A DNA stretch of 64,000 bases from Carallia brachiata (lineage: Eukaryota > Streptophyta > Magnoliopsida > Malpighiales > Rhizophoraceae). The stretch's first letter is position 1. Each line of letters begins with the position of its first letter. Under the pieces are notes generated by a model. That model saw nothing but the letters and a program-made list of their open reading frames with translations, had not been told where the DNA came from and made no database searches. Shown here piece by piece: positions 38,052 through 60,303 of the stretch. The stretch is from contig JADCRB010000046.1 of assembly GCA_021464245.1 (NCBI GenBank), positions 5,722,760-5,786,759 of the forward strand. The letters are read 5' to 3'. Both the position numbers and the translations under genes were made by a program.

Positions 38052-38320
38052 TTATGCTTTGGTAAGATGGGAATCGATGTCTTTGGTGATGTCGACTGCA
38101 AGTTGGATAATTGAATGAGGGTCTACGATTTGGTCATGCAGCTTCTCATAATCTATGGTCCAGTGCACCACACTACCCTCACCTTTTGGGATGGCCTGAA
38201 TAGTGGCTTTGAAGCTTTTGAATTCCTTCAACAGATCTCCTTCAATCATAGTGAAAGTGACTGACAATTTCTCATTGTCTATGGCTTCAATGATCTCCTT
38301 GGCAATCTTAGTCTCCCCAT
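38052..38320 (-). pseudogene. MLP-like (Bet v 1 family) copy A, exon 2
   Basis: Exon 2 is intact: the acceptor CAG is followed by (G)AT, then GETKIAKEIIEAIDNEK, MIEGDLLKEFKSFKATIQ, SVVHWTIDYEKLHDQ, ITKDIDSHLTKA and TAA. This is the C-terminal 89 codons of a major latex protein, a small cytosolic ligand-binding protein of the Bet v 1/START fold. Its exon 1 lies 12 kb away at 50345-50493 because the intron has taken up a LINE and a complete LTR retrotransposon. The intron side of the acceptor is replaced by a run of A (38324-38342 on the plus strand is T) from another insertion. With a truncated exon 1 the copy is most likely dead. Confidence 0.8.
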
Positions 38321-38452
38321 CTGTTTTTTTTTTTTTTTTTTTAAATCGGCCAAAACATACTTTTTATCAACTCCAACAAAATACAAATAGAGTAACACCT
38401 ATATAATAACATGGGAACCTTGCAATGAGTCGTTCCCTAGTCTCCCCATTTG
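38309..38452 (-). mobile_element. short poly(A) retroposon at the exon 2 border of MLP copy A
   Basis: TAGTCTCCCCATCTG (38309-38323) and TAGTCTCCCCATTTG (38438-38452) form a target duplication with one mismatch. They flank a 114-bp insert whose minus-strand 3' end is about 19 A's (plus-strand T-run from 38324). The first duplicate is the start of exon 2 itself, so the insertion copied the exon border. The insert body has no recognisable coding sequence; it is a SINE or truncated LINE. Confidence 0.7.
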
Positions 38453-38496: not shown

Positions 38497-39137
38497 TATT
38501 GTAAGGGCCACCAAAATCACATAGTTTTGAGTATGAAAATTTCTGTGCATAGGGATTTGTTTTTTGTGGTAGAATGATGATTTCAGTATTACAGTGGTAG
38601 GTTTGGAGTTGCATGAAGAGCCTTGGTTTATAATTGAGTGAGATGTGGCTTTCTGGTTGAATCAAATTTGGGGCATGGGTTTATTCATGATCTGAACAAA
38701 ATGAAGGACTTATTAGGGACCTGACTTACATTATTTTGTTTGGGGATCTTGGTGGCGGTCTTCTGTGGCAATCTTTCTTGGTCGGCTCCTGGGTCATCAT
38801 CTATTCATTGGACTGATGGTGGGTATTTGGGTACTTTGTACTGGGTGTATGAAGAGACTGGCAGGTGTTGCAGTGCTAATATGTTGACAAAAAGTGATCT
38901 TCGTTCAGATTTCTACTATTAATAGCTCTGTGATGCTTATTTTGCGTTCTCTCTTATGGGGGGGGGGGGGGGGTTGATGCGTTGGTTTCATCATTCTTCA
39001 TTCAGCTTGCGTTAGGCTGTTGTTTTCTGATGTTGTTGAGTTTCATATTTGTTGGGATGTTTTTTGCTAGGATGTGTTGTTGGTTTTAGCCTTTGTGAGT
39101 TTTTGTGGAATGTAGCTTAGTTTTGTGCTATTGTTGT
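38497..39137 (+). mobile_element. LINE 3' region, left part (interrupted by the Tat element)
   Basis: This T/G-rich segment has no counterpart in the introns of MLP copies B and D. It resumes at 49152 after the Tat element and ends at 49278-49316 with ATGAATAAGATTCTCGATGT followed by A-rich sequence, a typical LINE tail. Intron sequence homologous to copy D lies on both sides (…TTCCGATGCC at about 38495 and GGAATATGCAGATTGATGTG after 49320). The nesting order is therefore LINE first, Tat element later. A run of about 17 G lies near 38958-38975. Confidence 0.5.
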
Positions 39138-39763
39138 TGTAAAGCGTAAATTTCGTGTCTAAAATAATTAAACTCAAAAATACAAAAATAAATTACAAAT
39201 AAAAATTGTAAAGTAAAAGAAAATTTACGTGGGGTCGATCTCCGTAGATCCTCCGATTAGTGTTCCTTTTTTGACTCCGTCAAGGGCTGCACGAGCTTGA
39301 TTTTGACAGAAATAATTTCCACCGCTTTTTCTTGAACTGGATAGACTGAAACTATGTCTGATTTGGATGTTTTGACTACGTTTAGGAACCGTAGAAACTT
39401 GATATGAGCCGATCTGACTTAATTTCACCGAGGGTCGAATGCACTTATTCTCGGATGAGTTGCCTGGATTTTGCTGAGGGCCGTATGAGGCTTAATCCCA
39501 GCCGAATTTGTAATATTTTGATTTTTTTTTTATCTCTCTCTTTTTTTTTTTTTTTTTTTTTTTTCCGCTTCGCTGCCTCTTCTGCGCTTTCTTCTTTCTC
39601 TTTTTTTTTTTTTTTTCTTCTTCTGCTTGCTTCTTTTTTCTTCTTTTCTTCTGCTTCTTTCGCTGCCCAATCCAATTGGGGGGAGGCCATTTATAGGCCT
39701 CCCCCACCTGCCCGCCTGCCACCAACCAAATAATATATATATTTTTTTTTCAATTAGTTTACA
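39138..39763 (-). repeat. 3' LTR of the Tat element
   Basis: 626 bp, TGTAAA...TTTACA. On the element's strand a TATA box (TATAAATG, 39689-39696) is set in a GGAGGCC...GGCCTCC inverted repeat. A CT/T-rich tract (39520-39660) follows upstream on the plus strand. It lacks about 60 bp present in the 5' LTR at 49050-49110. Confidence 0.9.
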
Positions 39764-39777
39764 AATGCCCCCACTTT
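39764..39777 (-). promoter_or_regulatory. polypurine tract of the Tat element
   Basis: Directly before the 3' LTR the minus strand reads AAAGTGGGGGCATT. This purine block primes plus-strand synthesis. The same sequence, with one change, precedes the LTR at 63943. Confidence 0.7.
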
Positions 39778-39879
39778 AAGGGTCGGTAAGAAAGATTTTT
39801 ACAGAGATAATTCGAATCGAGTCTTGAAGTCCAGTTTGAAATTTGGAAAGTCCTGATGAATATTGAATCTTGGAGTCTT

Positions 39880-40212
39880 CTATCTTTGACCATGCCTGCT
39901 GTTGTTGGATCGCAATAGGAATCCGATACGATCTTGAAAAAAAATTAGCAACCCAGCTAATATAGAAATTGAAGCCTTGGCTCTAGGTGCATTCGAGCTT
40001 CCATAGCCCGCAAAGGATTTTTTATATCTCTTAAAATTCCAGAGCTCTGGTGAGGATGATCCGGTAGGCAAAGAACTTGAACCTCCCCAAGAGGAAGACC
40101 CAGCACTTTGGAACTTTAAGACCTGCGCACAGAGAGACTGACTGTAGTGATGATTCTTAAGTCTGCTTCGACGTAAGGAGAGTAGTTGGAACTTCCCCGT
40201 ACATCGCCGCAT
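39880..40212 (-). other. 110-codon frame in the 3' region of the Tat element, unrecognised
   Basis: The frame contains a Ser/Gly-rich stretch (SAGSSSWGGSSSLPTGSSS) and a Lys/Tyr-rich stretch (WNFKRYKKSFAGYGSS). It lies downstream of the captured homeobox, in the same orientation. Its first residues include a copy of a 20-bp repeat (…GGAGAGTAGTTGGAACT at about 40175 and again at 40250). No family was recognised. It could be a further captured exon or non-coding spacer. Confidence 0.25.
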
Positions 40213-40389
40213 CCAAAGGAAGATTAGGATAATTGTAGTAGATGTGAACTAAGGAGAGTAGTTGGAACTCCATGACACCGATGGCGTTAGGGATCCCTCG
40301 AGGAAGACTACTCCTTCTTTTCTTAGTTCGTGTGCCTCCAACTTCTTGATCGAAGAACTTCTTGAGACAAGTGCAGAGACTAGCCATTT
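40157..40389 (-). CDS. 76-codon ORF with promoter-like upstream region, unrecognised
   Basis: From ATG 40389 the frame reads MASLCTCLKKFFDQEVGG..., then a basic TRTKKRRSS segment, and ends at 40157. The start context is good (AAAGAAAATGGCT). About 55 bp upstream lies TATATATA (40443-40452), followed by a C/T-rich leader, which is the layout of a real plant promoter. A longer in-frame reading begins at 40549. No domain was recognised. It lies in the accessory 3' region of the retrotransposon and may be a second captured or element-specific gene. Confidence 0.35.
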
Positions 40390-40577
40390 TCTTTTGAGAA
40401 AGAAGAGCTGAGGGGTGAGTATTATAACTCGGGAATGCAAGATATATATACATGCGATAAAGTTTTTTTTTTTTTTTTTTTGAAAAGTCAAAAAGAAGGT
40501 ACGCAGATCGAGTAGGGTCATCCACGTCCCTTTCCTGCATAAGAGACAAAAGAGGCAGCGGCTGACGCGTGTCACGA

Positions 40578-40653
40578 AAGTCGTTACCGTGTGTTGCAGA
40601 AGTCGTTGCCGTGTCCTGCAGAAGTCGTTACCGTGTGCTGCCAAAGTCGTTGC
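40578..40653. repeat. 22-bp tandem repeat (AAGTCGTTACCGTGTGYTGCAG)
   Basis: Starts at 40578, 40600, 40622 and 40644 (the last copy partial) give an exact 22-bp period with a few substitutions. It lies just downstream of the captured homeobox gene's EAR-encoding end. Confidence 0.85.
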
Positions 40654-40673
40654 ACCTTATCTTGTCGGCCGTC

Positions 40674-40828
40674 CTAGCGGGGCCCAAGATGCAACTCCAA
40701 GTCAAGCTCGACCTCGTCTGGTGGGCCGATGATGTTGACGTCGCTTTCCGGCTGGTTGATGCTGCCGGAATATTGAAAGAGAGGCAAATTTCGCCGGAAT
40801 GACTCCTTTCTGCTAGAAAATTCCTCCT
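40674..40828 (-). pseudogene. WUS-type C-terminus: WUS-box-like and EAR motifs, out of frame with the homeodomain
   Basis: A frame open from about 40828 to the TAG at 40674-40676 reads RRNLPLFQYSG, which resembles the WUS box (T-L-x-L-F-P) with the Pro replaced by Gln. It then reads VELDLELHLGPR and stops. LDLELHL is a perfect LxLxL EAR repression motif at the extreme C-terminus, the position where WUSCHEL carries its EAR motif. The homeodomain frame ends at 40813, so one small indel between 40813 and 40828, or splicing, separates the two halves. The order homeodomain, WUS box, EAR is the architecture of the WUS clade. EAR motifs recruit TOPLESS-type co-repressors in known proteins. Confidence 0.6.
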
Positions 40829-41280
40829 AGACTTAAGTATCTAGGAGGGATGAACCCTTGGCTGACTCCGTAAGACCACCAGGACCAGCATGCATTCTCC
40901 CATGGGCTACGACTTTGATGAACATACCGTGGAGAGACCATTGCAGTGGAAGAACTCGGACCTGCTTCATTTGAGGGCGAAGCTGTACCAGTGGGATTTA
41001 CTATCGGAACGACAGACTGTTCTTTGGAAGAAGCAGTTCTCAGTGCTGGTTTCTTTCTGCTTCTCCGATTCTGGAACCAATAAAACACATTTTTTCCTTC
41101 GATTGCCCCGAGCGGGCGCAATCGTGAGACAAGTTGGTAAATTTGAGATGCACTAGGAATAATACCTCCATTGTTGTGGAAGACTTCCTCCAAAATTTGC
41201 AGTTGTGCCATGGTCGGTTGCCACCTTGTGCGGGGTGACCTTTCTTCTCCCTTGTCTTGAGGTTCTGCAACTGGTTCCAT
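40813..41280 (-). CDS. WUSCHEL-type (WOX) homeodomain protein captured by the retrotransposon
   Basis: The frame is 155 codons from ATG 41280. An in-frame TGA at 41389-41391 excludes a longer start. Residues 17-79 form a WOX homeodomain: RTRWQPTMAQLQILEEVF (helix 1), PSASQIYQL (helix 2), IEGKNVFYWFQNRRSRKK (turn and recognition helix, with Trp, Phe, Asn and Arg of the WFQNRR core). IEGKNVFYWFQN is the WUS-clade signature. The loop is longer than in ordinary homeodomains, as in all WOX proteins. A Ser/Pro/Thr-rich linker follows. The protein is short compared with typical WOX proteins (about 180-350 residues), and its C-terminal motifs lie in the next frame (40674-40828). It lies in sense orientation between integrase and the 3' LTR. 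Known WUS proteins control stem-cell maintenance; activity of this copy is unknown. Confidence 0.85.
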   Translation of the reverse strand: MEPVAEPQDKGEERSPRTRWQPTMAQLQILEEVFHNNGGIIPSASQIYQLVSRLRPLGAIEGKNVFYWFQNRRSRKKPALRTASSKEQSVVPIVNPTGTASPSNEAGPSSSTAMVSPRYVHQSRSPWENACWSWWSYGVSQGFIPPRYLSLGGIF

Positions 41281-41369
41281 CTTTCTTGTGGCAGAGGAGC
41301 AAAGGTCTTGGTATGTGGTGAAGATCGGTTGAGACTGATGCTGAGTTTCAGACTCAAACCCTCCGTTGC

Positions 41370-41376
41370 TTTTATA
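41370..41376 (-). promoter_or_regulatory. TATA box upstream of the captured WOX gene
   Basis: The minus strand reads TATAAAA inside AAAATATAAAAGCAACGG, about 90 bp upstream of the WOX start codon. That spacing suits a plant promoter with a short leader. The gene may therefore be transcribed separately from the LTR transcript. Confidence 0.45.
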
Positions 41377-41489
41377 TTTTTGGGCCGTTCACAGTTTATA
41401 CTCATGCGGGCCAGGAGTTGGATTGGATTTTGAACTTGGGTTCTGGACTGTGTCTGGAACTTGGAATTTTTGGGTTTTGGGTTTTGGAT

Positions 41490-41620
41490 TGGATTTGGGT
41501 CGAGTGTTTGGGCTTCTAGACTTGGATTTTTGGACTTGGGTCGAGTGTTTGGGTTTTGGATTTGAATTTTTGGATTTGGGTCGAGTGTTTGGGTTTTGAC
41601 TCTGAATTGGGCTCAAATGT
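41490..41620. repeat. ~40-bp tandem repeat with TCGAGTGTTTGGG core
   Basis: The core occurs at 41500, 41541 and 41581, separated by GATTTTTGGATTTGGG-type sequence. It lies upstream of the WOX TATA box. Overlapping frames rich in Pro/Lys/Asn or Trp/Phe/Gly are by-products. Confidence 0.75.
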
Positions 41621-41665
41621 TTGGGTTTGGACTTTCGCTTGGTCTTTCAGATCGGGACTTCGCAA

Positions 41666-41684
41666 TTTTTTTTTTTTTTTTTTT

Positions 41685-41751
<67 letters not shown>
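41666..41751 (-). repeat. 86-bp poly(A) tract (minus strand) between integrase stop and the captured gene region
   Basis: The plus strand shows 20 T, then GA, then 64 T. On the element's strand this is an A-rich tract beginning about 7 bp after the integrase stop codon (41758-41760). It may mark the junction where foreign sequence joined the element, or simply be expanded low complexity. Its exact length is doubtful in any assembly. Confidence 0.8.
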
Positions 41752-41755
<4 letters not shown>

Positions 41756-41759
41756 ATAT

Positions 41760-42797
41760 TTACACATAATACTGTTTCAGAAATTTACCATTGATTGGGC
41801 CGATTCGGACGCCTTCTTGGTCTGACAGCATGTAAGCGTTGTGAGTGTAGGCCTCCTGCACTAAGTATGGCCCGTCCCATTTGGAAGTAAGCTTGTCACC
41901 AGGCCGATGCTTCATGTTGATGGGCCGTCGCACTGCAAGAACAAGGTCTCCAACTTGAAAAGATCGAGGGCGGACCCTGCGGTTGAAGTGTTGGTGAGCC
42001 GGGCTTGGTAGCACTCAAGTTGCTGTTGTGCTTCGAGCCTCCTTTCATCGAGGCTTCTAACTCATCCAGACGTAGGCGAGCATTCTCCTCCTGTGTGAGT
42101 CCTTCCAGAACAGCCATGCGCAGGATGGAATCTGTGTTTCCAACGGCAGTATTGCTTCGACACCGTAGACAAGTGAGTATGGCGTCGCCTGTGTTGGAGT
42201 CCGGTAAGTTGTACGATACGCCCATAATGCCTCCGGAATTCTGTCATGCCAATCTCTTTTGGATTTAGAGACTACCTTCCGCAACAGGTTGCATAAGGTC
42301 TTGTTGAATGCTTCGGCCAAGCCATTTGCTGGGGCATTGTACATGGATGACTTGTACTGCTTGAACTTGAACTTCTCGCAGAGCTTGTCGATTAAGCTGT
42401 TGTAGAACTGCTTACCATTATCAGTGATGATGAATCGAGGGACTCCATAGCGATAGATCAGCTGAGTCCGGATGAAATTGGCAACATGCTCCTTCTTTAC
42501 CTCTCTAAGTGGAATGGCTTCAGCCCATTTTGAGAAGTAGTCGGTTGCTGCGAGGATGTACAGGTGACCAGGGATGACTTTGGCAAGGGCCCCACTAAGT
42601 CGAGACCCCAAGCTTCAAAGGGCCAGGATGAGACAGTTGGATGCAGTGGCTCCGGTGGTTGATGTATGTAATTCGCATGAAATTGACAAGCTTGAAGTTT
42701 TAGCAAACTCAATTGAATCACGTACCATGGTTGGCCAGTAGTATCCCATCCTTCTGAGTTGGAAGTGCAACTTAGGCCCGATTGATGTCCGCCACAA
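41760..42797 (-). pseudogene. Tat element integrase (broken)
   Basis: On the minus strand in order: remains of the zinc-binding region (PKLHFQLRRMGYYWPTMVRD, 42700-42790), WPFEAWGLDLVGPLPK, the catalytic core (42057-42611) and a C-terminal part (41760-42014) with RSFQVGDLVL and SKWDGPYLV. The core has the full DDE set: Asp in AATDYFSKW, Asp in ITDNG, and Glu in NGLAEA exactly 35 residues later. The pieces sit in at least three frames, with shifts near 42710, 42600 and 42050. No chromodomain is visible, as expected for the Tat clade. It would insert element cDNA in the nucleus if it were made whole. Confidence 0.85.
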
Positions 42798-43064
42798 ACA
42801 CCAGAATGTGCTTCAGTGAGAGCCTGTTTTGCCTCTTCATTGCTAGGCAGGAGAAAGAAAACTCCATCAAAAGACCTTCGATACAGAGCATCCTTGAGAT
42901 ATATGAAGCGGGGAGCTCGTCGTTGAATTTCTGTTTATGACGACGATCTTCGGGCAGCTTCCCGTGCTGTAGTAGTCAATGATTGGTTGGCGCCAATCTC
43001 GTCCTCCGCGAGACGTACAGATACAGCGTTGGCTGCTGTAGTTTCTTCATCATCCTTTGTGGCA

Positions 43065-43682
43065 CTATCCATTTCTGGCATACGGCAACAACTGTAGCCT
43101 GGATTTCTGACTTTGCAAGAGAGTGGCCAGGTTAGCCAACGCGTCTGCCTGAGTGTTTTCTCGTCGAGGCACATGCTCCAAGGTGATGCTTTCAAATTCA
43201 TCCATTAGCTGTCGAGCACGTTGATGGTAAGGCGCAAGGTCCTCTTTCTTCACGTCATACAATCCTGTAAGTTGGTTGATGACGAGCTGGGAATCTCCAT
43301 GGACTTCTATAGTTGGAATCTTCATATCGACAGCCATTTGAAGACCAATGATCAAAGCCTGGTATTCAGCAACATTATTTGAACATAACTCACCGAGAAT
43401 GATAGCATATGGTAGTATTTGTCGTTGAGGAGTGACAAACACTATGCCGGCACCAGCACCATCACGCCTTGCTGCACCATCAAAGAACATCGTCCATGGT
43501 GGCAGTGTCTCAATGTAAAAGACCTCTTCATCTGGAAGATCATCTGTGAACTCCCAATCTGACGGAACAGGGTGATCTGCAAGGAAGTCTGCTAGAGCTT
43601 GTCCTTTGACTGCTTTTTGAGGCACGTAGACAATGTCGTAGCTTTGTAGGATTACTGCCCACTTGGCAAGTCGTCCTGACAA
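43065..43682 (-). pseudogene. second (archaeal-type) RNase H domain, Tat-clade hallmark
   Basis: One 205-codon frame first gives the end of the RNase H1 tether (VKGQALADFLADHPVP) and then a complete RNase H fold. Its four acidic residues are in place: Asp in MFFDGAA, Glu in NVAEYQA, Asp in HGDSQLV and Asp in QADALA. This extra RNase H, standing between the usual RNase H and integrase, is the defining feature of Tat-lineage elements. The domain itself is undamaged, although the polyprotein frame is broken on both sides. Confidence 0.9.
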
Positions 43683-43921
43683 GATTGGTCTGATAAGATA
43701 TATTTGACAGGATCAGCTCTGGCAATGAGACGTACCGTGTGAGCTTGCATGTAGTGCCTCAGCTTGTCAATGGCAAAGAACAGTGCTAGACATGTCTTTT
43801 CAATGGGCGAATAACTCAGCTCCGGACCGTTTAGTGTTCTGCTCAAGTAGTACAGGGCAACTTCCTTTCCCTGCTCGTTTTCCTGTGCAAGCAAGGCTCC
43901 CAAAGATCTTTCCTGCTGCAA
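43652..43921 (-). pseudogene. RNase H1 domain of the Tat element
   Basis: The frame reads SLGALLAQENEQGKEVALYY, LSRTLNGPELSYSPIEKTCL and then FAIDKLRHYM, the standard RT-RNase H segment of Ty3/gypsy pol. It is in a different frame from the RT (shift near 43915) and from the second RNase H (shift near 43680). Confidence 0.85.
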
Positions 43922-44873
43922 TGTAGAGAATCAACGACTTTCCTTGAATTGGAGCACCTAGGACCGGTGGATTGGAAAGGTACTTCTTTATGCTCTCAAA
44001 GGCTTTGCTGCAAGCTTCGTCCCACTCGAAGTTGACATCCTTCTTCATCAACCGATGGAAAGGTTGACATCTCCCAGCTAAATTGGAGATGAAACGGCGA
44101 ATGTAGGCCAGCTTTCCTTGTAGACTTCGCAGCTCGTGCAGGTTTTTAGGTTCAGGCATCTTTTGAATTGCCTCAACCTTTGACTGATCAACTTCGATTC
44201 CACGATGGCGCACCACGAACCCAAGAAACTTTCCTGATGTGACACCGAATGCGCACTTGAGAGGGTTCATTTTGAGCTGATGCCTCCGAAGTCTTTCGAA
44301 CACTGTCTTGAGATCCTCGAGGTGGTCTTTGCGCTTCTTAGTCTTTACAACTAAGTCATCAACATAACATTCTACAATCTTGTGCAGCATGTCATCAAAA
44401 ATTTTTTGCATAGCACGTTGATAAGTGGCGCCAGCATTTTTCAATCCAAACGGCATAACTTTGTAGCAGTATATACCTTTTGGGGTGCGGAATGCTGTCA
44501 ACTCCTCGTCTTCTGGTGCCATTCTGATTTGGTTATAGCCTGAAGAACCATCCATGAAAGACAATGCTTCGTGACCCGTTGTTGCATCGACTGTGATCTC
44601 CGTTATGGGCAATGGAAAGTCATCTTTCGGGCAGGCCTTGTTAAGATCTCGAAAATCAACACATACCCTCAACTGTCCATTCTTCTTTCTTACTGGGACA
44701 ATGTTGGCAATCCACGTTGGGTAGGTGACCTCTCGGATGAAGCCGGCATTGATCAGCTTGTTCACCTCCTCCTCGATTTGTGGAATGAGTTCCGGGCGGA
44801 ACCGTCGTTGTGGCTGCTTGACAGAACGACACCCTTCTTTACTGCTAGACGATGCACCGCAATTTTGGGTCAA
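43800..44873 (-). pseudogene. reverse transcriptase of the Tat element (domain intact)
   Basis: A 357-codon frame carries the whole RT core: NKLINAGFIREVTYPTWIAN, PVRKKNGQLRVCVDFRDLNK, SFMDGSSGYNQIRMAPEDEE, MPFGLKNAGATYQRAM, the catalytic box ECYVDDLVVKT and LGFVVRHRGIEVDQSKVEAI. All three catalytic Asp (MDG and YVDD) are present. The frame is lost after ILYIAAG, at the start of RNase H1. It is the longest uninterrupted pol part. Confidence 0.92.
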
Positions 44874-45860
44874 GTCCAGGCATTTCTTTGTAACTCCATG
44901 CGAACACGTCCCTGTATTGACTTAATACCTGAACATATTCTTGCTCTTCTTCTGCAGTAAGTAAAGCACTTACAAATGTAGGTCGAGGATCTTCCGGAGA
45001 GCCAAGATTGACCTCCTTGAGTTCATCAACAGTTGCTTGGCCACCATCTTCAAGTTCCGGGGGAGCCTCCTTCACTTCACCATCTGATGAGTCGGAATCA
45101 GCCTCCTCGCTAATTGTGACATGAAATGCAGAACCTCTGACTTCACCTTCTTTGTTTGACTGGATAAGCCTGTCTTGTTTGGTGGTGGTGGTGATGGCAC
45201 GTGCATCAGCTGCTCGGCTTCGGCTCTTTAGCGTGATCCGCACAGGTGACTTCTCCTGATAGCCTAAGCCAGGTCGGGACTGTGATGTTTGAGAAGCGGC
45301 GCCATGTGTGGACGGCAGCGTACCCATTGTGCTCGGGTTTGAAAGTCATAGCCCGCCTTTGCCAAAAGCTTGTATGCATTAGGATCAAATCCTTCATGTG
45401 TTCTTCTTTCTGGAAGTGAGCCGCCTTCGACTGCCCCCGTGTGTGGTTTGACGAAGCCTTTTAATGGTTTTGAAGACAAAACCGGCTCAATCTTTGGTAT
45501 CGGCAGAGTGTAAGTCTCCTTCAGGTTGTGCAGCTCCTTTGTTTTGGGTTGGCTATGACCTTGCTCCTGTTTAAGATCAATACAATAAGAGAAAGGGGGT
45601 TGACCTTCTGAGCGTCGTGACTTGGCACATAGCGTAGGACTGGAGTGGAGCTTGAAGATGCAACATCCTTCGGACGAGTTCAGCAGGCTGTGGCAGCTTT
45701 TCATTTGTTGGAGCCTGGGGTTGGGCATTGGCAGGTTCTTCGACAGCTTTTCCCTTTTTGTGGATGCCCCCAGTCCAAGTAGCTTTTGATGGAATGATCT
45801 CCGGATTGTCTGTGTCAGTGTAGAAGACTGCATCCGCCAAATGTGATTCAGCATCATCGA
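44845..45860 (-). pseudogene. protease-RT linker region of the Tat element
   Basis: Several overlapping frames (44845-45327, 45264-45857) carry an acidic stretch (ISEEADSDSSDGEVKEAPPE) and the RT-proximal motif SQYRDVFAWSYKEMPGLDP, which in Tat/Athila pol directly precedes the palm domain. The segments are joined by frameshifts. The linker is otherwise poorly conserved in this clade. Confidence 0.7.
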
Positions 45861-46260
45861 ACGGCTTTAAGTCAGCATTGACCTTTTGAACGCCACCATT
45901 GTAGTACTTGAAGCACTGATGCAGGCTTGAGAGCACAACTCCATTTCCATGAATCCACGGTCGTCCTAGCAACATCTTATATGTGGTACGTGCATCAATC
46001 ACGTGAAATAGAGTGCTAGAAGTGAGATTACCGATAGTTAGCTCCAAGCGAATCATCCCAATTGCTTTCTGTCCTCCTTGATTAAAGCCATGAATCATCA
46101 AGCGGCTGTCTGATAATTCATCAATGCCGATGCCGAGCTCCTTTATGGTGGATTTTGGGATAATATTGACTGCGACCATCGTCGATCAGAATACGTCGGA
46201 CCTTCTGTTCTTTCACATAGCCTGATACATACAGCGGCCGATTGTGGGGTTTGGACCCCA
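45861..46260 (-). pseudogene. aspartic protease of the Tat element, frameshifted at the active site
   Basis: One frame ends with KVRRILIDDG; the next begins NIIPKSTIKELGIGIDE and continues with MIHGFNQGGQKAIGMI, LFHVIDARTTYKMLLGRPWI. This is the retropepsin layout DDGS.VNI...TYK.LLGRPWI. The reading frame changes between the catalytic DDG and the following residue (about 46172-46180), where about two bases are missing, so no active protease can be read from this copy. Confidence 0.8.
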
Positions 46261-46559
46261 GCAGGAGATCCTCATCTGAAAATGAGATAGCAGAGTAACA
46301 TCCGACGTGATTTTGGTCCGCCTGTTGCTCCGCTGAGTTAGACTCATTTGATGGCTGTGATTCAGCTGAGGTCTGGAGAGTATTGCTGACTTGATTTTGC
46401 CACACTTCTGTTGATTGCAAAGCTATAAACAGCTGAGGGTTAGCGAGAAGGGTTTGGAGAGCTTCATATACCTTCTCCGTTGTCGACTTTTTGTTGTCGA
46501 GCGGCTCCTCCTTACGGTGTGTCACTCTTCTGATGGTTTTGAAGTGATGGTGGTTGGTT

Positions 46560-48220
46560 TGCGAGGTTACGCCTTCCTGGTCCAGAATGATTTTATTCTG
46601 GCTTTGAGCTTCATGATTAGCTCCTTCAGGACGAAACACTTCTCGGTTGGATGACTTACTATCCGGTGATATTTGCAGAATCTCGGATCGCTGACTCGAT
46701 CCTTTTCATTCGGCCGCTTGCACTCTGGGAGTTCGATCAGCTTCGCCTCCAAGAGTTGTTCAAGAATGTCGGGGACGTCTGAGTCGGGGAATGGATACTG
46801 CTTCTGCTCCACTCTCGCAATGTCACCTTCCGCCTTTCCTGTTGTTTTGGCTGAGTTATTTGGGTCGGAGGATTTACCTTAGCTTTAGCTCCCACTTTTA
46901 CTGGTGCGGCTTCAACAGTCATCACTTCTTTCCTTTTCCGGAGCTGTTGGGTTTCTTAATCTCCCTTCTGCCCCCTTGCTGGTCCAACTGGATGGGAACC
47001 GTGCCTCCGGAAGTCATGCTTATCTCCATATCATGTGCGCGGGTCGCCAGTTCTTCGAAAGTTTGGGGTTTGACACCCTGCAGGATGTATAACAGCCCCC
47101 AATGCATTCCCTGAATGCACATCTCTACGGCAGAAGTCTCCGTCAGGCGATCTTTGCAGTCCAAGCTGAGGGCACGCCATCTGTTGATGTATTCGACAAC
47201 GGGCTCTCCCTTCCTTTGTTTGGTGCTGGTAAGCTCCATCATACTTACCGTCCTTCGAGTGCTAAAAAATCTGTTGAGGAACTATCGTTGTAGCTGTTCC
47301 CAACTGTCGATTGATTCTGGTTCAAGATTGATGAACCAGGTGAAAACGGTCTCCCTGAGTGAACGAACAAACTGCTTCACTAAAAGATCTCCATAAGTCC
47401 CTGCGTTGTTGCAGGTTTCAACGAAGTGGGCGATGTGCTGTTTGGGATCGCCTCGTCCGTCGAATTGTTGAAATTTGGGCGGTTGGTAACCCAAGGGCAT
47501 GTTGAGACTTTCGATCCGTCTGGTGTACGGTTTGACGTACATCTGCGATCCTTGGAAGGATGTAGCTTGTTGCAGTCGGATCGTATTGGCTATCATTTCC
47601 TGCAATTGTTGAACAGATAGCGAAGCTATAGAATTTGAGGGTGGCAGCTGTGTAGAACTACCTGGTCGCTTTTCTGCAGGGAAGACGTCGGCTGGTGTGG
47701 CTTCTGGAGTGAAACCGGGTGGATATGGTTGCTCCTCGCGGATTTCGGGATCAACTTGGATCGTGGCTTTTCCTTTGAGAGCGGCGATCTGTTGATCTTT
47801 TTCCTCCACGACTCTGATCAGCTGTAAAATTTTGTTCTCCAATTCTGAAATCCTTTCCTCTGTGCTGGTTGTGTTGGTCATTATGACGGCAACAGATGAG
47901 GCTCCGGGAAAGACTGGGGGAGAAAACTCTTCTGATTCTTCTGTGTGAGTCGGATTTTGTTGAGCAGGTTTCGTCGTGTTGCCCCCGACTTCGATCGGGG
48001 TGGGTGATCGACTCCTCCATGCGGCAAGAGAGTCAGGGGAGAGATCCTGTTGTGCAAGCTGTGGACTCTCCATTTCGACATTTTGTCGGGTTTGGACGGC
48101 AAGAAATTGTGTCCGTCCCCGGGTTTCTGGACCTGCGTACCCAGGTAGGGTAGTTGATGCAGACAATGGAGCCGTTGCCTTCTTTTTTGTGGCAGCAATT
48201 GTACTCTTTTTCGGTGTCAT
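46560..48220 (-). pseudogene. gag of the Tat element (in-frame stop and frameshifts)
   Basis: It starts at ATG 48220 with a basic Lys/Ala-rich N-terminus. The capsid-like core reads MPLGYQPPKFQQFDGRGDPK, HIAHFVETCNNAGTYGDLLV, then an in-frame TAG at 47282-47284, then FLNRF, and VVEYINRWRALSLDCKDR and MHWGLLYILQGVKPQTFEEL in the same frame. The stop replaces what should be a Glu or Gln codon. Frameshifts near 46930 and 46805 lead to YPFPDSDVPDILEQLLEAKL and then CKYHRIVSHPTEKCFVLKEL, the CCHC-like knuckle of this clade. Gag would form the virus-like particle. Confidence 0.88.
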
Positions 48221-48457
48221 TTGATGTGCTGAACACCTGTAAAATTTTTTTTTTTTTTTTTTACTTTTACTTTTTTACTTTTACTTTTTTTTTTACTTTT
48301 TACTTTTACTTTTTTTTTTTACTTTTTACTTTTACTTTTTTTTTTTACTTTTTTTTTTTTTACTTTTTTTTTTCTCTCGGCTCCCCTTTTACCTCTTTTT
48401 TTTTTTAGGAACAAGAGATGGGAGGTGAAGTTGTCCCACCGAGCGTACCAAAAAATT
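48221..48457 (-). promoter_or_regulatory. untranslated leader and primer-binding site of the Tat element
   Basis: Next to the 5' LTR the minus strand reads AATTTTTTGGTACGCTCGGT (48438-48457); TGGTACGCTCGG is the likely tRNA primer site, and the tRNA type is not certain. The rest (48247-48400) is an A-rich low-complexity leader with AAAAGT units. Phe-rich plus-strand frames here are artefacts. Confidence 0.6.
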
Positions 48458-49146
48458 TGTAAAACGTAAATTTCGAGTCTAAAACAATTAAACTCAAAAA
48501 TACAAAAATAAATTACAAATAAAAATTGTAAAGTAAAAGAAAATTTACGTGGGGTCGATCTCCGTAGATCCTCCGATTAGTGTTCCTTTGTTGACTCCGT
48601 CAAGGGCTGCACGAGCTTGATCTTGACAAAAATAATTTCCACCGCTTTTTCTTGAACTGAATAGACTGAAACTGTGTCTGATTTGGATGTTTTGACTACG
48701 TTTAGGAACCGTAGAAACTTGATCTGAGCCGATCTGACTTAATTTCACCGAGGGTCGAATGGACTTGTTTTCGGATGAGTTGCCTGGATTTTGCTGAGGG
48801 CCGTATGAGGCTTAATCCCAGCTGAATTTGTAATATTTTGATTTTTTTTTCTCTCTCTCTTTTTTTTTTTCTTTTTTCTTTTTTTTTCCGCTTCGCTGCC
48901 TCTTCTGCGCTTTCTTCTTTCTCTTTTTTTTTTTTTTTCTTCTTCTGCTGGCTTCTTTTTTCTTCTTTTCTTCTGCTTCTTTCGCTGCCCAATCCAATTG
49001 GGGGGAGGCCATTTATAGGCCTCCCCCACCTGCCTGCCAGCCACCAACCAAATGGTTGGTGGCATTAATTAGGTTGGCAGCTGCCAACCTTCAAGGTTGG
49101 CGGTTGCCAACCATATAATATATTTTTTTTTTTCAATTAGTTTACA
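48458..49146 (-). repeat. 5' LTR of the Tat element
   Basis: 689 bp, TGTAAA...TTTACA. The TATA box reads TATAAATG on the minus strand (49010-49017), inside a GGAGGCC...GGCCTCC inverted repeat. Next to it lies a 60-bp segment (49050-49110) rich in GGTTGGC/GCCAACC inverted repeats that the 3' LTR lacks. Confidence 0.9.
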
Positions 49147-49151
49147 GTTGT

Positions 49152-52065: not shown

Positions 52066-54137
52066 GTGTATAGCTATATAAATTCAAATTTAATATGTAC
52101 ATTTATTCAGTGCAATTTTAATTAGTGTGTTTTTAGCAGTAGACTAATCATCACAAATTTAATAAAACTTCGTATGGATCCTAAAATTAAATTTCTTGCA
52201 ATGTAAAACAGGTGAGATGAGAGTCTCCAGATCAAGTAAATCAAGATGCCCAACATTGGTTTACTTAGAAGTTAGAAGCCTAACTAAGGGGCCAAATTAA
52301 ACAGATCATCATAACTTTCTTTCTTTCTTTCCCTTTTCCAACTGTTTAAAAGGTTTACAACATAATTTCCAGACAATATTGGAAAACTTGTTGAGGAGAA
52401 AAATCATTATCGAAAAGTACTGGACTCTAACTCAAATAAAATTATTAGATTGAGCATGATTGATTAGGATCAAACAAATACAAAATGAAGCACAGTTATG
52501 GAAAACCGGGATCTCCCTAACATTGGCACTTAAATGTCTAAATTAGTAATGAGTGTCTAAAAACAGAAAAAAGTTTAGAGAGAGTGGTGTGTGTGGTTTA
52601 TTTAAGCCTATATATGACTCAAAGATAACTCTCTAACTAGGAAAGAAAGGACCTTTTTATTTATAGAGTTTAAAGGGATGCTTATAGAGGAGGTCCTACT
52701 ACAAGGAAGTGCTAATATATGGGCTAAAAAGCCCGTGAAAACATAAATGTATAATAAGCCTATGTGGTGATGTACTAGAGGACAACGAAACTGTAAGGCC
52801 AATTTATTCTTTATCACTTATTTTGACCTATATCGTTTTATTAGAATTTATTAAAATTAGAACAACTCTCGCGCAAGCTCCCTACGATTCATTCATCTGA
52901 ATCTATGTCCATTTCCGGATCAAAATCTGCATTATATTAGGTTGTGACACTGGGCCACTAGCCTTAATTAGCTTGTTTAAATCAATGTACTGTTATGGTT
53001 TTTTTTTAATTGAAAAAAAAATTTATCGTGAATATGTCGGTCATTAGATTTACAGATTAAGATTTGAGTATTCTTGCTTGAATACTTCATGCAACTTAAT
53101 CCATAAAAAAGGACACACCACTCGACTACTATTAGACCTGATCGGACCTCCTCTAAACAAATCACGGCGATTGTCCAGTTTAAAACTAACGACGTGCAGT
53201 CAACCATTAAATTAGATAATTTCAAAAATTAAAGTTTTAAGGCGCTGCCACTTAAACTCAAACTCGAGTTGTGAGTAGAAGAAATATGTCGAATTATCAC
53301 TAAGTTACCAACTCGGGTGGTATGTACCATTATGTTAGTGGTTTATTACACATGATTTTATTATGAGCCCAACAGGTAATTTCAATTTAGTATGTTTATT
53401 AATTTCAAGTAGCTCGTTTAATTAAGGATTTAAATTCAATATGGTAGTTTTTATTATTCCTAGCATAGGGCTAATTTTATTACATTTAATTTTAGATGCT
53501 GGCATACGGCCATTTGTCTCCATGAAAAATGAAACTAGAGTCAATATTATGACTTCCGAGCTATATTTATTTATTTATTGTCTATAGAAGAGCCCATCAT
53601 TGTGGAGAGACAGGTGAAGAAGAAGGCCGGGATTCAAACTACAAACTTCCTAATTAAAGGCCCGTATTTTCAGACAATCCAATTAAAATGGATCATCCGT
53701 GAAACTATTTATTGGTAGATATTGCAATGGACAACAAGTTCCCACGGCTGATTCCATAAAATGTTCAGAACTTGTCCAATTTTGAGACCCCGAATAAGAT
53801 AGAAATTAACTAAGAAAATTAAGCCCTACAGGGGTTCCGATGTCACAGGGGTTCTCCAAGAATACATAATTTTGGATGCCTATAGGTTACTATGAATAAA
53901 ATAGAGCGATTCTCGACTGTTCAAAGTAATAATAATAAATAAATAAATAAATAAATAGATAAATCAATGGATTATGTTTTAATGGTTCATTACACAATGC
54001 ACGGGGAGGTTGATGATTTGTTGTATTCGTCGCCAAATATTCTATCGATTAATTACCATGCCTATTAGATACAACAACATCAAACCTTAATCGTACTTAA
54101 CATATCTCACTGTAAATATGTTTTGGGCACCGTCTGT
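52066..54137. other. intergenic spacer
   Basis: No gene is supported. AT-rich, with short (AAAT)n near 53935-53960. Confidence 0.5.
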
Positions 54138-54509
54138 AGAAATAAATATGTCACCAAAATTCAAGATCATATCAGGGTGAATGACTATTAGGTCACGAGT
54201 TCAAACCAAAGGCCTAGGTTTATATATCCTCTTAAACTTTATTCTTAGCTTGCTTTGATCCACATCTCAACAAATCTGGTCAATGTATATCAATTATGAG
54301 GATAATTAATGCAGAACCAGAGCAAGCCAATTTTATTAATTAGAAAACATACACCATAGAAACAAAAACATAGTGGACATTACAATTGAACAAACAAGCC
54401 AAGCAGTACTCAGGATCTTTGGCATACATCACTTGATATGTAGAAATCAAGCGCACACCGACACATAAACATAACTGCATACTTTATTTATCAAAGACAT
54501 AGATCAGAT
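54138..54509. repeat. 3' flank of MLP copy B (segmental duplicate of 58805-59176)
   Basis: ATATGTCACCAAAATTCAAG, CAAAGGCCTAGGTTTATATA, GATCCACATCTCAACAAATC and following words recur in the same order at 58808 onward downstream of copy D. The similarity supports tandem duplication of the whole gene with flanks. Confidence 0.75.
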
Positions 54510-55578
54510 TGGCGTTTTGCTTTGGAAAGATGTGGAATCGATTTCTTTGCTGATTCCACTGCAAGTTGAAGAAGCGTGTGTGGGTCTATAATTTGGTCAT
54601 GCAGCTTCTCATATTCCATGGTCCAGTGCACCACACTGCCCTGAGCCTTTGGGGTAGCTGAATAGTGATTTTGAAGCTTTTGAATTCCTTCAACACATCT
54701 CCTTCAATCACAGTGAAAGTGACTGAATTTTTTTCATTGTCTACGGCTCAATGATCTCCTTGGCAATCTGTCTCCCCTTCTGTTTTTGCAATTCAATAGA
54801 GTATACTAGCAAATCATTTTCCAATTTTCTATCCTTAAGATGCCTTATGTTATATAATATAAACCGGGCAAGTACCTAGTTGTGTGTACGAGAAGGCATG
54901 GATGTGCATATTGATGATGCATGGACCATATCCTTATAAATTCTATCCATCTTCCCCATGATTGAATGCAACTTTATAATGTGCATGGACCATATCCTTA
55001 TAAACACTCACAATTTTTCTTCTTGAAATAATGCCATTTTTGGTACTTTAATCTCCAAAATGGAAGTCAGGTAGGCTTTCTTGACCTGGAACATTGCACT
55101 TATTGTACATGATGGAGGAACCTTACTACAAGTATATGTTGGAGCCGAAACTAGGATACGTCTACGAATGAGGCTACCACTTGTAGATATGCCACAAACC
55201 CCAGATTACAGTATCAATTATTAACGTTCAGAACAAATACTGGATATTCAAAGTTTGTTAAGTTGAGTTGAATCATCAGAATATGTTAATAGTCATCAAC
55301 AAAAAAAATGGCTAAGGCGGTAATTAATTTTAAATCATTTGGAATTTTGTTAGTTGAATTGAACTATACATAAAACGTTTGGAATAAGCTTACCATGCTT
55401 TTAGGTCCAGCAGATGACACTACCTACTTTGCCCATTCACCTTCATGCAAATCACAAGTATGTACGTTACTAGGGAGTAACCAGATACGTGGTGTAGCCT
55501 GGCACTAAAGACTTCATGAAACTTGTCGGCCGGAGCCTTAATTTCTACATCAGTCTCCAGCTTCCCAACTAGAGACAT
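54510..55578 (-). pseudogene. MLP-like (Bet v 1 family) copy B
   Basis: Exon 1 is 55394-55578 (minus), from ATG 55578: MSLVGKLETDVEIKAPADKF, then HEVFSARLHHVSGYS. There one base is missing and the frame is lost; a second deletion follows before the donor CATG/GTAAGC. Exon 2 (about 54510-54779) begins after CAG and retains recognisable EKLHDQIIDPHT and SVVHWTMEYEK segments, but single-base deletions occur near 54746, 54767, 54652 and 54560, and the normal stop is altered. Intron about 614 bp. MLPs are small cytosolic proteins with a hydrophobic ligand cavity, often linked to stress and defence. This copy cannot encode one as read. Confidence 0.8.
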
Positions 55579-55677
55579 TTTTTCCTCTCTAAAATGAGCA
55601 GAGTTCAGTTTAAACCACCAGTGTATTAGAACCAAACAATGAGAGCGAGGTGAGTCTAAGGCTTCACCTCATATCGT

Positions 55678-55685
55678 TATATATA
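55678..55685 (-). promoter_or_regulatory. TATA box of MLP copy B
   Basis: TATATATA on the minus strand, 100 bp upstream of the start codon, in the same position and context as in copy D (60402-60409). Confidence 0.55.
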
Positions 55686-55721
55686 GAGTGTTATTTTTGG
55701 TCCATGCTAAATTTTATTTTT

Positions 55722-56340
55722 GACAAATATATGAATTTCACCCATCATCTTCTATATTTTTAAGAATTTCACCAATAGCATTTTTATATTTTAAATTTTG
55801 TCCTCTACGTTTTTGCCGTCAATGTTTTTTGCCTTTCTTTGTTAGTTTGCCGTTACATTTGATATTTAACAGTTCAATTATCGTTATGTCGTCTAATTTA
55901 AATGACATATCAGTATAAAGTGATGACCTGATATCTATTAAAGTGATGACCTATAATGTCTCGTCTTTTTCTGGTTGGTCTTGTTCAAGTATTTGCTTGT
56001 TTTAGTGTACATAGATAAAAAAAAACTCTTTATTTTTATTTTTACTTTTATTTATAAAATACTAAATAACATTTTCTTTCATTTTTAAAATAAACATATT
56101 TGAAATTTTATTTTTTAAAAAATATTAGATATCATATCATCAATTTATACTAACATGTCATTTAAATTAAATGATGTGGCGATAACTAGACTGCTAAATG
56201 TCAAATTTAATGACAAACTAACGAAAGAGGTTAAAAAAGATTGACTACAGAAACGTAGAAGATATAATTTAAAATATAAAAATTTTGTGAGTGAAATTCT
56301 CTAAACACTAAAGATGGTGGGAGAAATCCATATATTTGCC
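55722..56340. mobile_element. palindromic MITE/foldback element upstream of MLP copy B
   Basis: ACAAATATATGAATTTCACC (55722) is mirrored by AAATCCATATATTTGCC (56325-56340), and ATGACATATCAGTATAAAG pairs with ACTAACATGTCAT further in. The flanks TTTATTTTT (left) and TTTATTTTT (right) may be the target duplication. It sits about 40 bp upstream of the copy B TATA box. Copy D lacks it at the same place. Confidence 0.6.
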
Positions 56341-57200
56341 TTTATTTTTTGCATTCATTCACCCACTTTCATCTATTTTCCGTCGATCCAAATACCATCG
56401 AGAGGTACTAGCAAGAATCCAAATATATGACTTCTTCATCTTTATTTTATTTTTATTTTTTATTTTTTTTGGTTGTTATTGTTGCAAGACCTGCATTGGA
56501 CAAGGTATTCACTTCTAATTAAGAGCATATGAAATTGGTGAGGGTTCGACCCCGACCAAATGCATGTAGTGTCTTATGTAGCCACTTGCCTGAGAGGTTG
56601 GCTAGAATAAGTGTCTGAAGAGTCCTAAATTTTTTAGGATTTCTATAATTGAGTTATAAATTTTTTTAGCAGATATTAGTAAAACCTGTTTATGTAGTAT
56701 AAAATGTTATCGGTTTGCTATAAACACCCCCCCCCCCTTTTTGTATCTTTTGAATCAACGAAATAATGTGGCTGAAGTATTTTCCTTATAATTAAAGTTG
56801 AAGCCGTTAGATCTCTATGTCTGTGTTAAGAAACCAATTCACCAAAAGTTTAAAAAGCTTAAAAGTATTATAAATCATCTTAAATTTTTAAATTTTATCA
56901 CTATGAAATTTTATACACTTTAACATGTCATCTTGACAAGTGTTAGGTGTAATTAACACGTGACACAAAAAAATTAGATGAAACAGACCAAACACAACTA
57001 TAAAGGGCCAAACTGTTAGTGCAGACAAGACAATAAACCAAGTTCATATATATAAGTAAAAAATCTTGAGTTTAGGTGTATTTGAAGTAGAAGAGCTTTA
57101 TTTTACTGTCTGAATTATAGATCTCATCCTTGGCCTGAAAATTTAAAATATATTTTGTCTCCTTGTTTGAGTGCAACCTTTTTATTGTGTAACTACTGGA
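56336..57200. repeat. duplicated block (also at 58123-58800 and in part at 49675-50220)
   Basis: GCATTCATTCACCCACTTTC, GAATCCAAATATATGACTTC, TTAAGAGCATATGAAA and GCAGATATTAGTAAAACCTG occur in the same order at 56350 and at 58128 onward. The later part is also in the intron of copy A. There is no gene inside. It contains the SINE-like sequence listed separately and a run of about 13 C near 56727. Confidence 0.75.
56483..56635 (+). mobile_element. SINE-like sequence (B-box word), copy 1
   Basis: GGTTCGACCCC (56543-56553) fits the pol III B-box consensus GGTTCGANNCC. About 40-50 bp upstream, AGACCTGCATTGGACAAGG could hold a degenerate A box. The second copy is at 58255-58405 as part of the same larger duplication, so independence of the insertions is not shown. 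Confidence 0.3.
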
Positions 57201-57323
57201 TCAAGAGATGGTTAATTTGGCTTTGAATATGTCATTTGATTGTTGCCTTGTATCTTCAAATCATTTAGAATGTTGTTGCAGAGAATTGAACTATCACATA
57301 AATGTTGGAATAATTAAGCTTAC

Positions 57324-57505
57324 CATGCTTGTAAGTCCAGCAGATGACAGTGCCTCTTTCCCCATTCACCTTCATGCAATCACAAGCATGTACGTTACTG
57401 GGGGAGTAACCAGATACGTGGTGTGGCCTGGAACTAAAGACTTCATAAAACTTTTCGGCCGGAGCTTAATTTCTACATCAGTCTCCACCTTCCCAACTAG
57501 AGCAT
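57324..57505 (-). pseudogene. MLP-like copy C, exon 1 only
   Basis: The minus strand reads a start followed by VGKVETDVEIKA-like sequence (one base is missing right after ATG 57505), HHVSGYSP, SNVHACDCMKV-type sequence after another deletion, and CWTYKH. The donor CATG/GTAAGC is at 57323. No matching exon 2 is found before copy B's promoter at 55.7 kb, so the copy is a partial duplicate of exon 1 plus intron, closest to copy A. The plus-strand 130-codon frame across it is antisense noise. Confidence 0.75.
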
Positions 57506-58122
57506 TTTTCCTCCCTAAAATGAGCAAACTTGAATTCAACCACCAGTGTCTTAGAAGAACTAACGAGAGGAAGGTGCAGGATATAACGCTTCAACTCTAG
57601 ATTATATATAGTGGATTATTTCCAGTACGTGCATTAGTTTATTTCTTGTGTCCGTTACTTTATTATTTCCTCTTTTAATTGAGGGATGGTGGGGTTGCCC
57701 AGGGTTTTTCGAATGGTAATAATTACGCACATTTAATGAATTATCTAATTTTTGTTTTTCAATTTGATAATTCAATAGAGTATATTACTTTTGCTATATA
57801 GTATTTTCGGTTTTTATTTTGCTTCTCAAGGATGGCATTTTTAGCCCATGCTTGTTAAATCAGTCATCAGTGCATTGTTATGTTAGGTTGCAACATCGGG
57901 CCCCTAGCCTATGTTTTTGTTGGATAGAGAGGAAGATTCGTGTTATCTAGATAGACATCAATACATGGGGAAGTGGGCCTTTAATACCGACAAACTCGCC
58001 ATATACCTCAATTATGAGGATTGAATTGCATATTTGTAGTTTTATTACTAATTGCGATAATATATAAAAAGAGCTAAATGTATATCAAATAGAATAATTG
58101 TGAATTGTAAGTCTGCGTTTAT
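57506..58122. other. 5' flank of copy C
   Basis: No gene is supported. The first ~80 bp are a decayed MLP leader (CACCAGTGTCTTAGAAGAAC). Confidence 0.5.
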
Positions 58123-58800
58123 TTTGCATTCATTCACCCACTTTCATCTATTTCCGTCGATCTAAATACCATGCGAGGTACTAGCAAGAATCCAAATATA
58201 TGACTTCTTCCTCTTTATTTTCTTTTATTATTTATTTATTTTTTTGTTGTTGTTGTAAGACCTGCATTGGACAAGGTATTCACTTCTAATTAAGAGCATA
58301 TGAAACTAGTGAGGGTTCGACCCTGACCAAATGCATGTAGTGTCTTATACAGCCACTTGCCTGAGAGATTGGCTGGAATAAGTGTCTGGAGAGTCCTAAA
58401 TTTTTGAGATTTTCTATAATTGAGTTATAAATTTTTTTAGCAGATATTAGTAAAACCTGTTTATGTAGTATAAAATGTTATCGGTTTGCTATAAACACCC
58501 CACCTTTTTTTTTTTTTGTATCTTTTGAATCAACCAAATAATGTGGTTGAATTATTTCCCTTATAATTAAAGTTTAGGCTATTAGATCTCTCTGTCTGTG
58601 TCAAGAAACCAATTCACCAAAAGTTTAAGGAGCCTGAAAGTATTATAAATCATATTAAATTTTTAAATTTTATTGATATGAAATTTTATTCTTTATAACG
58701 TCATCTTGACAAGTATTAAGTGTAATTAACATGTGACACAAAAAAATTAGATGAAACAGACCAAACCCAACTATAAAAGGCCAAACTGTTAGTGCAAACG
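58123..58800. repeat. duplicated block, second copy
   Basis: Matches 56350-57010 nearly end to end. It includes a second SINE-like B-box word (GGTTCGACCCT near 58314). Confidence 0.75.
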
Positions 58801-59153
58801 AGAGAATAAATATGTCACCAAAATTCAAGATCATATCAAGGTGAATGACTACTAGATCACGAGTTCAAACCAAAGGTCTAGGTTTATATATTGTCTTAAA
58901 CTTTATTCTTAGCCTGTTTTGATCCACATCTCAACAAATCTGGTCAATATATATCAATTATGAGGATAATTAATGCAAAACCAGAGCAAGCCACTTTTAT
59001 TAATTAGAAAATACATATACACAATAGAAACAAAAACATAGTGGGACATTACCATTGAACACAACATAGCCAAGCAGTACTCAAGATCTTTGGCATACAT
59101 CACTTAGATATGTAGAATTCAAGCACACACCGACACATAAACATAACTGCATA
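58801..59153. other. 3' flank of MLP copy D
   Basis: Matches the 3' flank of copy B (54138-54500). No other feature. Confidence 0.6.
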
Positions 59154-59160
59154 CTTTATT
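59154..59160 (-). terminator. polyadenylation signal of MLP copy D
   Basis: The minus strand reads AATAAAG about 20 bp after the shifted stop and 33 bp after the family's usual stop position. Confidence 0.5.
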
Positions 59161-59176
59161 TCATCAAAGACATAGA

Positions 59177-60301: not shown

Positions 60302-60303
60302 TT

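Follow-up and report, generated by a model that had tools for sequence, protein, structure and literature searches.

The DNA considered here, a stretch of 64,000 nucleotides from contig JADCRB010000046.1 of Carallia brachiata (at its full length, the window), contains on its minus strand a Tat-type Ty3/gypsy long terminal repeat (LTR) retrotransposon (39138-49146), which carries, in sense orientation between pol and the 3' LTR, a gene of the WUSCHEL (WUS) type from the WOX homeobox family. The open part of this cargo gene, identified from the list of open reading frames (ORFs) and by Pfam, runs for 155 codons from an ATG at 41280 (context -3 A, +4 G) to the first stop (40816-41280, minus strand). 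It holds a complete homeodomain at 41050-41232 on the same strand (Pfam residues 53-113 of the frame 41388-40816, converted by hand). The Pfam Homeodomain match has an E value of 1.8e-12, and of two matches among solved structures, the WUSCHEL homeodomain 6ry3 is the best (E 3.4e-18), followed by STENOFOLIA (6wig, E 4.2e-16). The window copy and 25 plant WOX proteins all have the same core WFQN and R75. Comparison with other copies gives a full footprint of 40674-41280 (minus strand), within which the C-terminal part of the window copy is out of frame: the homeobox frame breaks before the C-terminus, a WUS-box remnant is out of frame (judged by eye against other copies), and the coding remnant of an EAR-type motif, LDLELHL (40686-40706, minus strand; read by eye), lies in a different frame from the homeodomain and is in frame in other copies. 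An earlier note on this DNA had read the 155-codon frame as a gene with a complete WOX homeodomain and had placed its left edge at 40674. The frame and its homeodomain are real, and 40674 is indeed the end of the full-length gene, but the frame itself is truncated, since the intact gene in other copies encodes 201-207 amino acids.

The element is a single decayed copy, recognized by its LTR pair, a 5-bp target site duplication, and gag and pol domains on the same strand, an arrangement that agrees with the earlier note. The 5' LTR (689 bp, 48458-49146, minus strand) pairs with the 3' LTR (626 bp, 39138-39763, minus strand); both start with TG and end with CA, and the duplicated GTTGT flanks them at 39133-39137 on the left and 49147-49151 on the right. 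A polypurine-tract-like stretch (AAAGTGGGGG...), so labelled from its position, adjoins the 3' LTR at 39764-39780 (minus strand). All coding domains lie on the minus strand. The gag region occupies two frames at 46922-48274, with a match to PF03732 Retrotrans_gag (E 6.8e-6) in 46922-47281 and an open frame without a Pfam match of its own in 47282-48274. Reverse transcriptase (RT) and the start of RNase H lie at 43800-44921 (PF00078, E 8.6e-35; PF17919, short of its cut-off at E 9.8e-5), a second, RVT_3-type RNase H (aRH) at 43065-43712 (PF13456, E 1.9e-25), and the integrase core at 42057-42614 (PF00665, E 6.1e-10). In this copy, gag-pol is split into several broken frames. The two LTRs differ at 24 of 625 aligned positions, with 65 gap columns, which corresponds to a K2P distance of 0.040; at rates of 1.3e-8 and 7e-9, the insertion would be about 1.5 to 2.8 million years old. 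The gypsy domain order, in which RT precedes integrase on the minus strand, together with the second RNase H between them, fits the Tat lineage to which the earlier note had assigned the element; the presence of an aRH in the polyprotein is the Tat criterion in the available passages of PMC6317226. No Pfam match to a chromodomain was found in 42057-42614 or 41896-42243 of the window copy, whose frames are broken, and no plus-strand ORF of at least 100 amino acids, as in Retand-type antisense ORFs, was found in the roughly 2-kb region between pol and the 3' LTR of this one copy.

The earlier note had proposed that a captured host WOX gene is spreading with the element, and had made the search for further copies with the homeobox its test. 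In the genome searched (337.5 Mb in 164 contigs), a 35-mer from the homeobox, at no more than three mismatches, has 787 places (370 + 417), compared with 0 for the reversed control. The nine host WUS-clade places differ from the 35-mer at 6-10 positions and thus fall outside this count, which is a lower bound because 107 of 112 tested element loci (86 of 87 and 21 of 25) lie within three mismatches. A 34-mer from the EAR-coding region has 393 places (control 0). The linkage was then approached from the pol side with the first 60 of 110 scored RT matches, of which 44 were examined: in 24, a listed homeobox lies 1.5-6 kb downstream on the same strand, and 20 of the other 36 were fetched, with a homeobox in 20 of 20. 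Thus, every examined pol-linked copy, 44 of 44, has the homeobox, intact or decayed, a result that upholds the proposal. From the homeobox side, 29 loci were taken with 1.5 kb on each side; a same-strand integrase (at least 200 nt) is present in 23, the element stretch between the gene and the 3' LTR in 26, and, given the cut at 1.5 kb, a piece of the 3' LTR of at least 80 nt in 8. In addition, for 19 of 112 copies the nearest copy is identical across the cargo gene, a count that may include assembly duplicates and that would be a sign of recent spread. A search through the RVT_3 family for Tat sister elements without the cargo gave six places near the top matches, with no integrase or homeobox match, and so they are not established as sisters. 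The same type of element was not seen elsewhere among the best 120 of 258 protein matches, which match WOX proteins (7995 candidates scored), nor was a homologous element found among viral contigs, a set that may omit near genomes.

The intact form of the cargo is seen in 58 of 92 sampled loci, in which a single frame of 201-207 amino acids runs from Met through the homeodomain to a C-terminal LxLELxL; a stricter rule gives 39 of 92. These loci were picked mostly by homeobox score or open frame, and consequently the intact share is biased high. In the 58 frames, the WUS box is TLPLFP in 35 and fits LxLFP in 51, and the EAR-type motif, for which the frames had been selected as LxLELxL, is LDLELHL in 35, LDLELRL in 21, and another sequence in two; the Pfam EAR model matches the cargo C-terminus at E 0.69-0.78, below its cut-off. 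At one locus (G000:C32:1634948-1635187), three EAR-motif matches follow one another at intervals of exactly 103 bases, which suggests that a segment of the C-terminal coding region is tandemly repeated. A separate observation concerns a long A-run in the window copy (41666-41752, sense), right after the pol stop and ahead of the cargo leader, which could mark the capture junction. Runs of at least 15 A residues stand upstream of the cargo in 17 of the 29 loci, with very different lengths. A role for the A-rich tract and leader like that of an internal ribosome entry site was considered and dropped, given the varying A-run length and a leader that is not unusually unstructured (z -0.94).

About 14 WOX places are present in the host genome: nine of the WUS clade, three of the intermediate clade, and two probably of the ancient clade. 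These clade labels are those of the best matches, and the labels of the WOX5 locus, the ancient pair, and several database rows are presumptive, resting on features considered typical of these groups. Among the best 120 of 258 profile matches listed from the protein database, most are named WUSCHEL, with about 50% identity over the homeodomain. The cargo is assigned to WUS because of discrete characters, namely an extra homeodomain residue, the WUS box, and the C-terminal EAR-type motif, and not because of the tree. The homeodomain segment has 39 residues in four of four element rows and ten of ten WUS rows, and 38 residues in 15 of 15 other WOX rows (some row labels being our own). The TLPLFP of the cargo matches that of the host WUS pair; where another host WOX gene proved to have a box, it reads TLQLFP or TLELFP. 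A C-terminal LxLxL is likewise common to the cargo and the host WUSCHEL genes, and an MEP start to the cargo and one host WUS. The cargo differs from the host WUSCHEL genes in being at least 70 residues shorter, in having a homeodomain that is only about half identical, and in having RRSRKK where the host WUSCHEL tail after WFQN reads HKARERQK. Furthermore, in the two host WUS genes, which are nearest to Erythroxylum (57-60% identity), the homeodomain is in one open frame and the WUS box in another, as would fit separate exons, whereas the element has them in one uninterrupted frame. A single frame is as expected from a spliced mRNA, and the best reading is an old capture from a WUS transcript; it would be old, since the set of domains is retained but about half of the homeodomain is changed. 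A WUSCHEL-like protein of 145 amino acids in Ipomoea triloba has a very divergent homeodomain with an insertion of WUS length (by eye) and an altered tail after WFQN, and may represent either a further capture or a host gene in decay.

Selection on the cargo was assessed in 111 copies aligned in the cargo frame, with variants private to one copy taken as decay after insertion and variants shared by at least five copies taken as inherited through replication. Over the ORF, the ratio of non-synonymous to synonymous variants (N/S) is 0.95 for private variants (187:58) and 0.47 for shared ones (81:51; Fisher p 0.0029), with an intermediate 0.58 for variants in two to four copies. Over the Met and homeodomain, the drop is from 1.16 (68:16) to 0.26 (20:21; p 0.00035). 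Stops account for 8 of 245 private ORF variants, 8 of 134 in two to four copies, and 0 of 132 shared ones. The in-frame stretch before the Met, expected to be untranslated, shows no drop (0.87 private, 1.33 shared). Because inherited variants in the Met and homeodomain are depleted of amino-acid changes and private ones are not, the cargo looks like a retained gene. This comparison of synonymous and non-synonymous change, suggested by the earlier note, leads to the conclusion that the homeodomain has evidently been under purifying selection during the spread of the family, with the rest of the cargo weakly constrained. Integrase, in 23 copies, is more strongly constrained (N/S 0.34 private, 0.04 shared). 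That a WUS-type gene was captured and has been retained is, in our judgement, very highly probable.

When the 111 copies were clustered at 97%, they formed two groups, of 59 and 25 copies, plus one pair and 25 singletons. Divergence between the two subfamilies, estimated from 8 copies of the first group and 10 of the second in a 240-codon alignment, is 3-4% in the first 60 codons and the last 40, 13-30% in codons 60 to 140, which cover most of the homeodomain and the first part of the linker, and 6-10% in codons 140 to 200. The corresponding dN/dS is 0.36 for the Met and homeodomain (dS 0.275) and 0.49 for the ORF. This mosaic would reflect either recombination of diverged lineages or a faster-evolving module. 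When both regions are compared over one set of copies, integrase has a mean pairwise identity of 0.987 and the cargo one of 0.946.

Taken together, these results have led to a model for what the cargo might do. WUS is a nuclear protein that binds TAAT-type DNA sites and recruits TOPLESS through its WUS box and EAR motif, and plant germ cells arise from shoot meristem cells. Because of this origin of the germ cells, it is in the shoot meristem that an element would gain most from a repressor. In this model, a spliced host WUS mRNA would have been caught by the element; the cargo protein, made from element RNA, would enter the nucleus, bind TAAT-type sites, and recruit the TOPLESS co-repressor via its WUS box and EAR motif. 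The ensuing repression in trans of host genes in meristem cells, perhaps genes for differentiation or silencing, would keep the germline-producing cells permissive and thereby allow new insertions to be passed on. That the cargo could rewire host meristem control or help the element to reach germline-forming cells had been suggested in the earlier note and is still a hypothesis. The probability that the captured and retained gene acts in this way, as a meristem repressor that favours inherited insertions, appears to us about even, with most of the doubt lying in the mechanism. A more elaborate version, in which the element owns a WUS-type repressor whose homeodomain has diversified between subfamilies and which opens the germline lineage, so that a parasite manipulates stem-cell identity, is tentative and would more probably be wrong than right. 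Shoot meristems are also a site of action of LONELY GUY enzymes, and the parallel with the LONELY GUY genes of Citrus elements, of the Athila lineage, is suggestive only.

Several observations weigh against a retained, WUS-type repressor. The WUS box varies, with 23 of the 58 intact frames lacking TLPLFP and all 10 intact frames of the second subfamily having ILPLFP, and the full frame from Met through WUS box to EAR motif is found in only 2 of 20 pol-selected copies (which are those absent from the best-homeobox lists, so that their intact share is biased low). The homeodomain tree does not group the cargo with WUS, and the element branch is very long; the best tree joins the cargo to WOX2 (support 70/90), and the approximately unbiased test of its placement rejects no WOX group (p 0.26 for WUS, 0.30 for WOX1, 0.11 for WOX3, 0.31 for WOX4, and 0.12 for WOX5). 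The support for the WUS-type label given in the earlier note comes from the discrete characters, the tree being as compatible with WUS as with the other WOX groups. The selection data also contain contrary results. The control before the Met is low as well for variants in two to four copies (0.32), and the fall in N/S is not significant in the linker (1.01 private, 0.63 shared, p 0.21) or the C-terminus (0.70 and 0.64, p 1), for which dN/dS between subfamilies is 1.44, on few changes. The 20 pol-selected copies show no contrast over the ORF (0.52 private, 0.50 shared) and only a trend over the Met and homeodomain (0.73 and 0.27, p 0.077). Similarly, in 22 copies with integrase, the values are 0.56 and 0.50 over the ORF (p 0.86) and 0.51 and 0.16 over the Met and homeodomain (p 0.24). 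In our reading, the private class in such small samples also includes inherited variants, which would blur the contrast. Finally, the LTRs of the window element show no convincing enrichment of known WUS motifs.

This last point bears on the main rival, in which the cargo protein is the element's own transcription factor, acting on its LTRs as a tissue-specific on/off switch. The 5' LTR has four TAAT-core sites where 1.5 are expected and two TTAATSS sites where 0.5 are expected, but these excesses are weak, being reached by 23 and 34 of 300 shuffles, and the 3' LTR shows less; furthermore, TTAATGG, TGAATGA, and TCACGTGA are absent from both LTRs. The scanned motifs are those of WUS, and the element homeodomain differs. 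The scan neither supports nor excludes such self-regulation, which we consider rather unlikely. It has also been considered that the cargo protein might compete with host WUS or its co-repressors and so blunt the exclusion of viruses and transposons from stem cells. The domain set is the same as that of WUS, and the homeodomain region differs far more between subfamilies than the gene ends do, as would an evolving interface; recombination between diverged lineages explains the mosaic equally well, however, and this form of counter-defence seems distinctly improbable.

Chromodomains are thought to target the integration of chromoviruses, and by the same reasoning the homeodomain might anchor integrase complexes at regulatory DNA rich in TAAT. 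Every examined pol-linked copy does encode a DNA-binding domain, whether intact or decayed, but the cargo is a separate gene with no fusion to integrase, which leaves this idea with very little probability. The same small weight falls to the view that a gene fragment, captured once, has simply been copied along without function. Many copies are frameshifted, constraint on the linker and C-terminus is loose, and no ORF contrast is seen in the small pol-selected subset, all as such a passenger would predict. It would not explain why intact frames occur in two diverged subfamilies, why motifs of the WUS-box and EAR types persist beside a homeodomain with only about half of its residues identical to WUS, or why private and shared variants contrast in the homeodomain. 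Finally, an artefact of assembly or annotation that sets a host WOX gene beside the element can be given almost no credence: the homeobox recurs in all 44 pol-linked copies examined, the neighbouring element also carries the cargo gene, and the homeobox loci contain the same-strand integrase (23 of 29) and the gene-LTR stretch (26 of 29), if only in 8 of 29 cases a 3' LTR piece. The preferred reading remains a captured and retained WUS-type gene.

The open-licence literature searched yielded no description of an LTR retrotransposon with a homeobox cargo; the stem "homeo" does not occur in the main text of PMC6317226, PMC9289625, PMC11963269, PMC12786077, or PMC7264820, nor do "homeobox" and "homeodomain" in that of PMC3726574. 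The nearest precedents are the AlkB, LONELY GUY, and B3 cargoes. According to sections of PMC9289625, a screen of 121 angiosperm genomes gave 15 extra domains in LTR elements, of which section 12 names PMD, G-patch, AIR1, DUF1409, YgdH, L26, B3, ArgoL2, and 2-ODD. As described there, Ty3/gypsy elements of Phalaenopsis carry an ORF for an AlkB-type RNA demethylase, tested in vitro; like the present case, they combine a plant Ty3/gypsy lineage with an extra ORF homologous to a host protein and are represented by many consensus sequences. They are 25-kb elements with an RNA enzyme, whereas the element here is 10 kb and its cargo would be a developmental transcription factor with repressor motifs. 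Citrus LTR elements carry the YgdH domain of the LONELY GUY family (PMC9289625, citing Steinbauerova 2011), again a host-type gene, but one for an enzyme and not a DNA-binding regulator. The B3 DNA-binding domain in LTR elements of Aegilops tauschii (PMC9289625) is, like the homeodomain, that of a plant transcription factor, although of another family, and section 12 of that paper gives neither a full-length gene nor a selection test for it. In the related Retand lineage, the accessible portion of PMC11963269 describes antisense TRP28 ORFs with predicted DNA binding between pol and the 3' LTR, a region of 2.9-6.6 kb, and a survey of 617 assemblies in which sense ORFs of this region have no known domain. 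The cargo shares the location of TRP28 and a predicted DNA-binding function, but it is in sense orientation and homologous to WUS, in a region of about 2 kb in the window element.

In the part available from a review of additional ORFs, transduced genes are said to be present in one or few copies; a WUS gene throughout a family of hundreds of copies contrasts with this. A recognizable host-type gene, in this case that of a developmental master regulator, in every examined pol-linked copy is more akin to what is seen with AlkB in orchids and LONELY GUY in Citrus. Should the protein be active, the access of plant transposons to the germline would become a directly testable question. Furthermore, hundreds of WUS-type homeoboxes next to about 14 host WOX places may be a raw supply for new regulators, and a gene-family survey could arrive at a wrong number of WOX genes if elements are not screened out.

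The surroundings of the element hold a second member of the same family, which begins at 63052 and runs past the end of the window (63052-64000) in the same orientation, with an LTR match of 87% over 391 bp. This copy, too, has the WUS-type gene; its frame is broken, and the identity is 96.5% over 572 nt. In addition, an exon of the Bet v 1/MLP-like type lies at 38052-38363 and has repeated relatives at 54.5-59.5 kb (in a region of about 54100-63000), so that the window element seems to sit inside a tandem cluster of Bet v 1-type genes, with the second element at its other end.
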